Shown: positions 55,629-57,091 of the stretch, one piece after another | Position numbering within the stretch: the first letter of the stretch is position 1 | How the letters are laid out: every line of letters starts with the position of its first letter | Source: an uncultured Lachnospiraceae bacterium | GTDB taxonomy: Bacteria; Bacillota; Clostridia; Lachnospirales; Lachnospiraceae | Assembly (NCBI GenBank): GCA_946411695.1 | Contig: CAMKEX010000001.1 | Span: forward strand, 23,060 to 87,059 | Reading direction: 5' to 3' | DNA length: 64,000 bases | The notes under the pieces: model-generated | Database searches by the model: none | What the model was told of the DNA's origin: nothing | Seen by the model: only the letters and a program-made list of their open reading frames with translations | Position numbers and translations under genes: made by a program

Positions 55629-55940
55629 TCACATCCGGATGATCCTGCGCAGCTGCTCCACAGCTGCCGGCAGGTCCTCCGGAGATCCTATCCTGACACG
55701 CCGGTTTTCCGGAACAGCCAGGTTAAATTCACTGGTACAGGCATTCGGACATCCATGGACCACCAGCAGCGCGGCGTATCGGATGCCGCTCTGCGCAGTC
55801 ACAAACGATGCCTCAGGCAGAAGGCCGGGCAGCCGGCGCACCAGATCATCCCGGTCATAGGTCAGATTACAGGCTCCGCAGAGACGGAGTCCTATCTCAG
55901 GAAGCTTTTTTCCGGGGGCAGTACTTTCAGAGAGGCACAT
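55629..55940 (-). CDS. Small cysteine-motif protein of unknown function
   Basis: 103 residues with a strong AGGAGG site. Two Cys pairs: LRLCGACNLTYDRDD (C-x2-C) and VHGCPNACTSE (C-x3-C), suggesting metal or cluster binding. The rest is a small alpha/beta fold (FVTAQSGIRYAALLVVHGC). No signal. I do not recognise a named family. The gene starts 92 bases from a structured element. Confidence 0.6.
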   Translation of the reverse strand: MCLSESTAPGKKLPEIGLRLCGACNLTYDRDDLVRRLPGLLPEASFVTAQSGIRYAALLVVHGCPNACTSEFNLAVPENRRVRIGSPEDLPAAVEQLRRIIRM

Positions 55941-56023
55941 CTTAATTCTTCCACCTCCTTGCAGCAGGTGAATCTGTATAGGCAGGTAAATTAATATAGG
56001 TATGTAAATCCGTATAGGTATAT

Positions 56024-56203
56024 AAATAAAGGTAACTATTCAGCTTTCCACGGCTCGCAATGACAGGCATTGCTCGCTGTGGAAAGTCCGGGGGGCTCCG
56101 CCCCCAGGCCTTCACCGGATTATGTCTCAAACCTGTCCGGTGAGCAAGCTTCCCGACCAGGTTTGATCCAAAATCCGGTGAAGCTGAATAGTTACAAATA
56201 AAG
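56024..56203. mobile_element. MITE-like element with 15-bp inverted ends
   Basis: GTAACTATTCAGCTT (56032-56046) and AAGCTGAATAGTTAC (56181-56195) are perfect inverted ends of a 164-bp unit. An 8-bp direct repeat AAATAAAG flanks it (56024-56031 and 56196-56203), like a target-site duplication. Inside are three hairpins: TTTCCAC/GTGGAAA with GCAATG/CATTGC nested; GGGGG/CCCCC; and CACCGGATT/AATCCGGTG with CAAACCTG/CAGGTTTG nested. No coding. Confidence 0.7.
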
Positions 56204-56206
56204 TAA

Positions 56207-56254
56207 CAAAAAGGCACTTTGAAAGACCCTGAAGTCACTCAAAGCGCCTTTTTT
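56207..56254 (-). terminator. Terminator of the DUF805 gene
   Basis: AAGGCACTTTGA pairs with TCAAAGCGCCTT (one mismatch). T runs on both sides make it bidirectional. Confidence 0.8.
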
Positions 56255-56338: not shown

Positions 56339-57091
56339 TCAGATGACAGGATATTTGGGGCTCATGCCGAACTGATTCTCTCCGGGCTGGCTGTCTGTCA
56401 GTTCAAATACCAGCAGTACGATACTGCCGACGCAGGGGACCAGGTTGAGGAAAAACCATGCGCCCGATTTCCCGATATCATGCATGCGGCGCCAGAAGAC
56501 TGCAAGCGAAGGTATAAAGGTAGCCAGCGAGAAGATCGACATCAAAATATTGGGCCCATCTTCAGGCGATGCTCCCAGGATGATCTTTCCCAGAACAGCG
56601 AGGATTCCCTGCACTATACAAATAAACAATGTATAGAACCAGTACTCACTTCTTCTGGCACGGCCTTCGAAGGTTGCGTACTTTGAAAAACAGGTCTGGA
56701 TCGCTTCTACAAAACCTACACCGGGAGTCGGTCCTCCGATTTGTCCCGAAGTACCCGCTGAGTAAGCCGGACCATAGGATGCACCGGATCCATAAGCAGG
56801 ACCGGTCTGCTGCTGGCCGCCATAGGAGTAGGACTGCTGGGTCTGGGCCTGCTGGCCGTCGCCATAGCTGTATGTCTCCTGGGATTGCTGGCTACCGCTG
56901 TTTGCATTCTGCTGCTGAGATTCAGTATGCAGGTCGCCGGCTGAAAACAGATTTTGATGAACGGAATCACCGGCTGCACTCTGAAAATCCTGTGCAGCCT
57001 GGGAGACTGCCTGCATATGAGGTGCCCCGCAGTTCTCACAGAACTTTGCGTCGTCAGCAATTACCGATCCACAGTTTCCACAATATGCCAT
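56339..57091 (-). CDS. DUF805 membrane protein with zinc ribbon
   Basis: 250 residues. N-terminal zinc ribbon YCGNCG/FCENCG (residues 3-23), a long Gln/Ser/Gly/Tyr-rich linker (30-125), then the DUF805 domain with about four helices and the family motifs FEGRARRSEYWFY and VFWRRMHDIGKSG. Probable integral membrane protein, function unknown. Confidence 0.9.
   Translation of the reverse strand: MAYCGNCGSVIADDAKFCENCGAPHMQAVSQAAQDFQSAAGDSVHQNLFSAGDLHTESQQQNANSGSQQSQETYSYGDGQQAQTQQSYSYGGQQQTGPAYGSGASYGPAYSAGTSGQIGGPTPGVGFVEAIQTCFSKYATFEGRARRSEYWFYTLFICIVQGILAVLGKIILGASPEDGPNILMSIFSLATFIPSLAVFWRRMHDIGKSGAWFFLNLVPCVGSIVLLVFELTDSQPGENQFGMSPKYPVI

Follow-up and report, generated by a model that had tools for sequence, protein, structure and literature searches.

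What is a short non-coding sequence with perfect inverted ends doing between two genes of an uncultured Lachnospiraceae bacterium, and is its elaborate folding of any consequence to it? The locus lies in a window of 64,000 nucleotides (the whole stretch of DNA analysed), where a sequence-only reading had proposed, at 56024-56203, a 164-bp element of MITE or REP type. The length holds for the element itself (56032-56195), and the wider coordinates take in the element plus both flanking duplications. Its features are as follows.

56024..56031, no strand: left target-site duplication AAATAAAG, the same bases as 56196-56203
56032..56195, plus strand: MITE, 164 bp, non-coding and complete in length, with copies in its own genome and in relatives, and member of a family defined by a covariance model
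56032..56046, plus strand: left terminal inverted repeat GTAACTATTCAGCTT, its first 12 bases being those of the IS66-type end of element L075
56044..56086, plus strand: arm A, hairpin CTTTCCACGGCTCGCAATG/CATTGCTCGCTGTGGAAAG, with two-sided change in 13 of the 14 pairs of the family helix
56088..56108, plus strand: arm B, G+C-rich hairpin with core GGGGGGCTCCGCCCCC, recognised from the fold and covariation
56110..56183, plus strand: arm C, a long hairpin whose tip CCGGTGAGCAAGC is conserved, with two-sided change in 23 of the 24 pairs that make up helices 4 and 5
56181..56195, minus strand: right terminal inverted repeat GTAACTATTCAGCTT, complementary to the left arm
56196..56203, no strand: right target-site duplication AAATAAAG, the same bases as 56024-56031

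This anatomy reproduces what had been read from the letters: the 15-bp inverted ends (56032-56046 and 56181-56195) are complementary at all 15 positions, AAATAAAG stands on both flanks as a perfect 8-bp duplication, the three internal hairpins are present at 56044-56086, 56088-56108 and 56110-56183, and coding capacity is lacking, the sole open reading frame of at least 60 aa spanning the element being a 98-aa chance frame. On one side lies a minus-strand DUF805-like gene (56339-57091, named from the appearance of its translation), whose terminator-like hairpin (56208-56253) is close to the element, and on the other a small gene that begins at 55940, likewise on the minus strand. Directly to the left of the element, in the region upstream of the small gene, are degenerate 18-bp tandem repeats, three to four in number, resembling GTAAATCCGTATAGGTAT (55967-56039), and the orthologous locus of another species of the genus (G011) differs there.

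The folding is far stronger than base composition would give. With DNA parameters the element reaches -56.4 kcal/mol, against -20.7 ± 2.9 for shuffled sequences (z -12.5), and with RNA parameters -95.0 against -48.1 ± 4.2 (z -11.3); under neither set did any shuffled sequence fold as well. The earlier statement that the nested stems exceed chance is therefore upheld, with z of about -11 to -12. The minimum-energy fold is a single closed structure, in which the ends are paired and three arms branch off.

The element is multi-copy and dispersed. Its own genome contains three further full-length copies (C151, C31 and C190, at 90-92% identity) and two partial ones (C149 and C108), and near-identical copies occur in four other species of the genus (G008, G011, G027 and G470). 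The genome search suggested by the sequence-only reading thus returned copies, and the outcome that it had named as fatal to its proposal, a single copy without relatives and conserved at the same place in all strains, is not what we observed. The insertion sites are unrelated, and several carry perfect 8-bp duplications of their own (AAAAAATG, AAAATATT, AAGATATG and others). Among 52 aligned copies, exact 8-bp duplications were found in 11, against an expectation of 0.28 when flanks are re-paired (never more than 3 in 2000 shuffles), and duplications with at most one mismatch in 19, against 1.6 expected, while exact 9-bp duplications were found in none; in many of these 52 copies the duplication is undetectable. 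The left-hand 8-bp flanks are A+T-rich (79%).

An insertion-free relative, also foreseen as a check, was found as well: on contig C99 of G011, the orthologous locus has both genes and the terminator hairpin in place and lacks the element. This allele is free of the element without being a clean empty site, as the intergenic sequence left of the site has diverged and the joined flanks scored no better than the filled site in global alignment. Most copies are intergenic (by rough calling, 31 of 42 are free of overlap with any chosen open reading frame of at least 90 aa), often lying less than 150 bp from genes. Two copies in different species, L221 (G462 C41) and L202 (G466 C15), agree in 8-bp duplication and flank (tttaAAATTTGG...aggt) and apparently descend, to judge from these sequences, from one inherited insertion. 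Long-arm fragments of the element also lie ~25-35 bp upstream of full copies (L049, 4569-4622; L047, 7260-7296), and are possibly remnants of older insertions beside newer ones.

We recognised as MITEs non-coding sequences shorter than ~500 bp with terminal inverted repeats, a fixed-length duplication, dispersed copies and ends common to an autonomous element. The sequence at 56032-56195 is short and non-coding, has the inverted repeats and the fixed-length duplication, and is dispersed. It contains no transposase open reading frame (PF03050) and is therefore a derivative or hitch-hiker, and no IS in its own right. Of the two types originally offered, dispersed copies, 8-bp duplications, IS66-type ends and the insertion-free locus retain the MITE. 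A palindromic repeat of REP/BIME type, moved by a RAYT (Y1 HUH) transposase, would likewise be intergenic, palindromic and multi-copy; REP elements are, however, RAYT-linked palindromes of 20-40 bp that make no target duplication, and the 8-bp duplications, on which we rejected this reading, together with the 164-bp length and the IS66-type ends, make it very improbable. The probability that the locus is a non-mobile terminator cluster, fortuitous or locally conserved, is close to nil: nothing beyond the nearby hairpin at 56208-56253 speaks for it, and it is refuted by copies found at unrelated sites and flanked by duplications of their own.

Ends starting with GTAA combined with 8-bp duplications, both present here as in IS66/ISBst12 derivatives, point to IS66 as the source of the transposase. 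Single-ORF IS66-type elements of the genus (L073, L075, L085, L094 and L096) have ends of the form GTNAC-NTTCA and exact 8-bp duplications, and the proteins of L073, L075 and L085 match PF03050. Two of them were delimited as follows.

L075, 613-2600: single-ORF IS66-type element of 1988 bp, duplication AATCTTAC
L073, 1367-3209: single-ORF IS66-type element of 1843 bp, duplication ACAAAAAC

The end of L075, GTAACTATTCAGAACCCC, is identical to the consensus of the MITE family, GTAACTATTCAGCACCCC, at 17 of 18 positions, and the genome that carries it (G003) contains six matches to the MITE model. The end of the window's own subfamily, GTAACTATTCAGCTTTCC, agrees with that of L075 at 14 of 18 positions, though at all of the first 12. 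The likeness is confined to the ends, the element sharing only chance-level short matches with the body of the IS elements. ISDge4, a single-ORF member of the ISBst12 group observed transposing, is bounded by GTAACTGCTCAGCA/GTGACTACTCAGCA and makes a duplication of 8 bases (PMC12898284). ISDge4, L073 and L075 thus have in common with the MITE GTAAC-TATTCAG-type ends and the 8-bp duplication; the MITE differs in having no transposase, only the ends being shared.

For a transposase with the same ends, which the sequence-only reading had put forward as a further check, the IS66-type element of G003 is a candidate, at 17 of 18 positions of the family consensus, and no autonomous element with the MITE ends was found among the 301 contigs (about 90% complete) of the window's own genome. 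The three IS66 elements of that genome were rejected as partners, as they have different ends (GTAAGCGTC..., GTAAACGTAAAA...); the window copy's direct partner is therefore absent from the assembly, lost, or horizontally supplied. Matches to GTAACTATTCAGC at C122, C3, C49 and C113, few beyond chance expectation, were discarded as further elements, having no convincing paired end with a duplication, and so were, as a transposon, the 4-5-kb contigs sharing GTAACTATTCAGCAT (G027, G033 and G473), the one inspected, that of G027, being an ABC-transporter region. Searches of phage, plasmid and viral collections gave no match to the MITE. Two further observations concern the IS66-type elements of the genus. 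A small extra open reading frame (MxxVKxxxKxxxxTYVYESxSYWDxE-like) lies upstream of the transposase in L044, L045 and L075. Another MITE, unrelated to the first and 154 bp long (L056, G008 C17, 597-750), with a perfect 8-bp duplication CCGAAGAC, has ends GTTACTATTCACAG that match those of the IS66-type element L085 (G014).

Many Lachnospiraceae carry members of the MITE family. Ten close copies were used to build a covariance model, which found matches in 27 of the 62 genomes of the genus and, outside it, in ~10 of 298 family genomes (six with E < 1e-8) belonging to a few other genera. Within the genus, G466 accounts for 27 matches, G031 for 15 and G462 for 13; DNA sequence search alone returned no copy outside the genus. 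The sister copies are only 48-64% identical to the window copy (about 58%) and keep the length (~160-165 bp), the arm layout and the end consensus GTAACTATTCAGCACCCC and GTAATTATTCAGCACCCC; the three-arm layout and the ~164-bp length are constant across genera.

The base pairs were maintained through this divergence. RNAalifold, applied to a MAFFT alignment (A4) that was not fitted to structure, although its members were found by a structure-aware model, recovered arms B and C together with the outer stem; of the 40 pairs, 34 show two-sided changes. In the full three-arm fold, whose pairs we assigned from the window fold and the alignment, two-sided compensatory change affects 52 of 67 base pairs, and the cells with such change number 366, against 95 in shuffled columns and at most 94 with slid partners. 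The three-arm fold is a family trait, kept via compensatory mutation despite divergence to ~58% identity.

At which level the fold matters can be approached through its tolerated mismatches. A structure selected as RNA on one strand is expected to tolerate G.U over A.C, whereas the well-paired columns contain 33 G.U and 50 A.C cells. Since there is no G.U excess, we read the fold as a DNA-level or strand-neutral property, which favours its maintenance as DNA, in a cruciform or hairpin, over RNA. We consider it unlikely that the element is a structured non-coding RNA (a regulatory leader, RNase III-type processing site or terminator) that is also mobile and whose fold is selected as RNA. Such a combination has a described precedent in the NEMIS/Correia elements of Neisseria, and the RNA folding energy of -95 kcal/mol (z -11.3), the strong covariation and the mostly intergenic copies, frequently less than 150 bp from genes, would suit it. 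Neither strand is clearly favoured by the mismatch counts, however, and no Rfam family corresponds to the element: a scan against Rfam 15 gave no match above the gathering score and only two sub-threshold ones at chance level. A gene-orientation bias, considered as a sign of a regulatory role, was rejected, as copies show no clear orientation to co-directional neighbours (8 sense and 14 antisense, by rough ORF calls). Mostly intergenic placement without clear orientation bias is more in keeping with a parasite than with a dedicated regulator.

Selection itself has a competitor, since either selection or hairpin-templated repair could be the source of the covariation. Quasi-palindrome repair, by copying arm onto arm, would let palindromes renew themselves without any selection; the symmetric G.U/A.C pattern suits such a DNA process, and long near-perfect hairpin arms are known substrates of template switching. 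Certain internal mismatches and loops nevertheless recur at constant positions in the copies (such as column pair 28/43, and the loop that separates columns 106-111 from 130-136), where repair would have been expected to erase them, which argues mildly for selection, and the ~164-bp length and three-arm layout do not change between genera. We regard this non-selective origin as possible, though well short of probable. The original proposal of selection on RNA or DNA folding finds support in the strong covariation, and the evidence leans towards DNA, biased template-switch repair being a possible non-selective alternative.

Taken as a whole, 56032-56195 is very probably a non-autonomous, ISBst12-type MITE of the IS66 family, mobilised in trans and carrying a family-wide three-arm fold. 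Judging from its ends and duplications, it most likely jumps with a borrowed IS66 (ISBst12-group) transposase. This single-ORF enzyme, made elsewhere, would recognise the GTAAYTATTCAG ends in trans and mobilise the element into A+T-rich, mostly intergenic targets, where an 8-bp staggered cut would give the AAATAAAG duplication. The geneless interior has three hairpin arms that, with the paired ends closing them, make up a four-way cruciform-like fold, which as DNA may join the two ends, make or protect a single-stranded or cruciform intermediate, or serve as the preferred substrate. More tentatively, and with doubt prevailing, the DNA cruciform or hairpin itself could be a conserved substrate feature across the whole element family, beyond end sequence alone, such that the DDE (IS66-type) transposase or a host factor would recognise or require the three-arm DNA for end pairing or for replication of the element.

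MITEs, IS66 and folded bacterial repeats are already known. Correia, ERIC and RUP elements make TA duplications and, with YPAL and NEMIS, have ends that differ from the IS66 type, whereas the present family combines 8 bp with IS66-type ends, the comparison at the sequence level being the Rfam scan. Correia/NEMIS, RUP, ERIC and YPAL have been reviewed as folded mobile repeats (Delihas 2007, PMC2229807) and are, like the MITE, small, mobile, intergenic and strongly structured. Other bacterial MITEs, such as MITEAba12 of Moraxellaceae, are likewise short and non-coding with inverted ends and many dispersed copies, but MITEAba12 is reported to have only a weak secondary structure of -24 to -27 kcal/mol (PMC6382973), against -95 kcal/mol (RNA parameters) and cross-species base-pair covariation here, and differs in ends and host group. 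The literature searched, which excluded ISfinder and subscription papers, contained no IS66/ISBst12-type MITE and no folded Lachnospiraceae MITE; within that scope and in Rfam the family is undescribed, and its depth of covariation seems unusual for a DDE-type MITE.

Folded DNA is functional in the transposition of HUH elements such as IS200/IS605. A three-arm fold kept across species at less than 60% identity, with most pairs compensated, offers a test case for whether folded DNA may also be functional in DDE transposition. The family moreover links a MITE to ISBst12, a group of IS66 that has been little studied, and supplies a missing repeat family for the annotation of Lachnospiraceae genomes.
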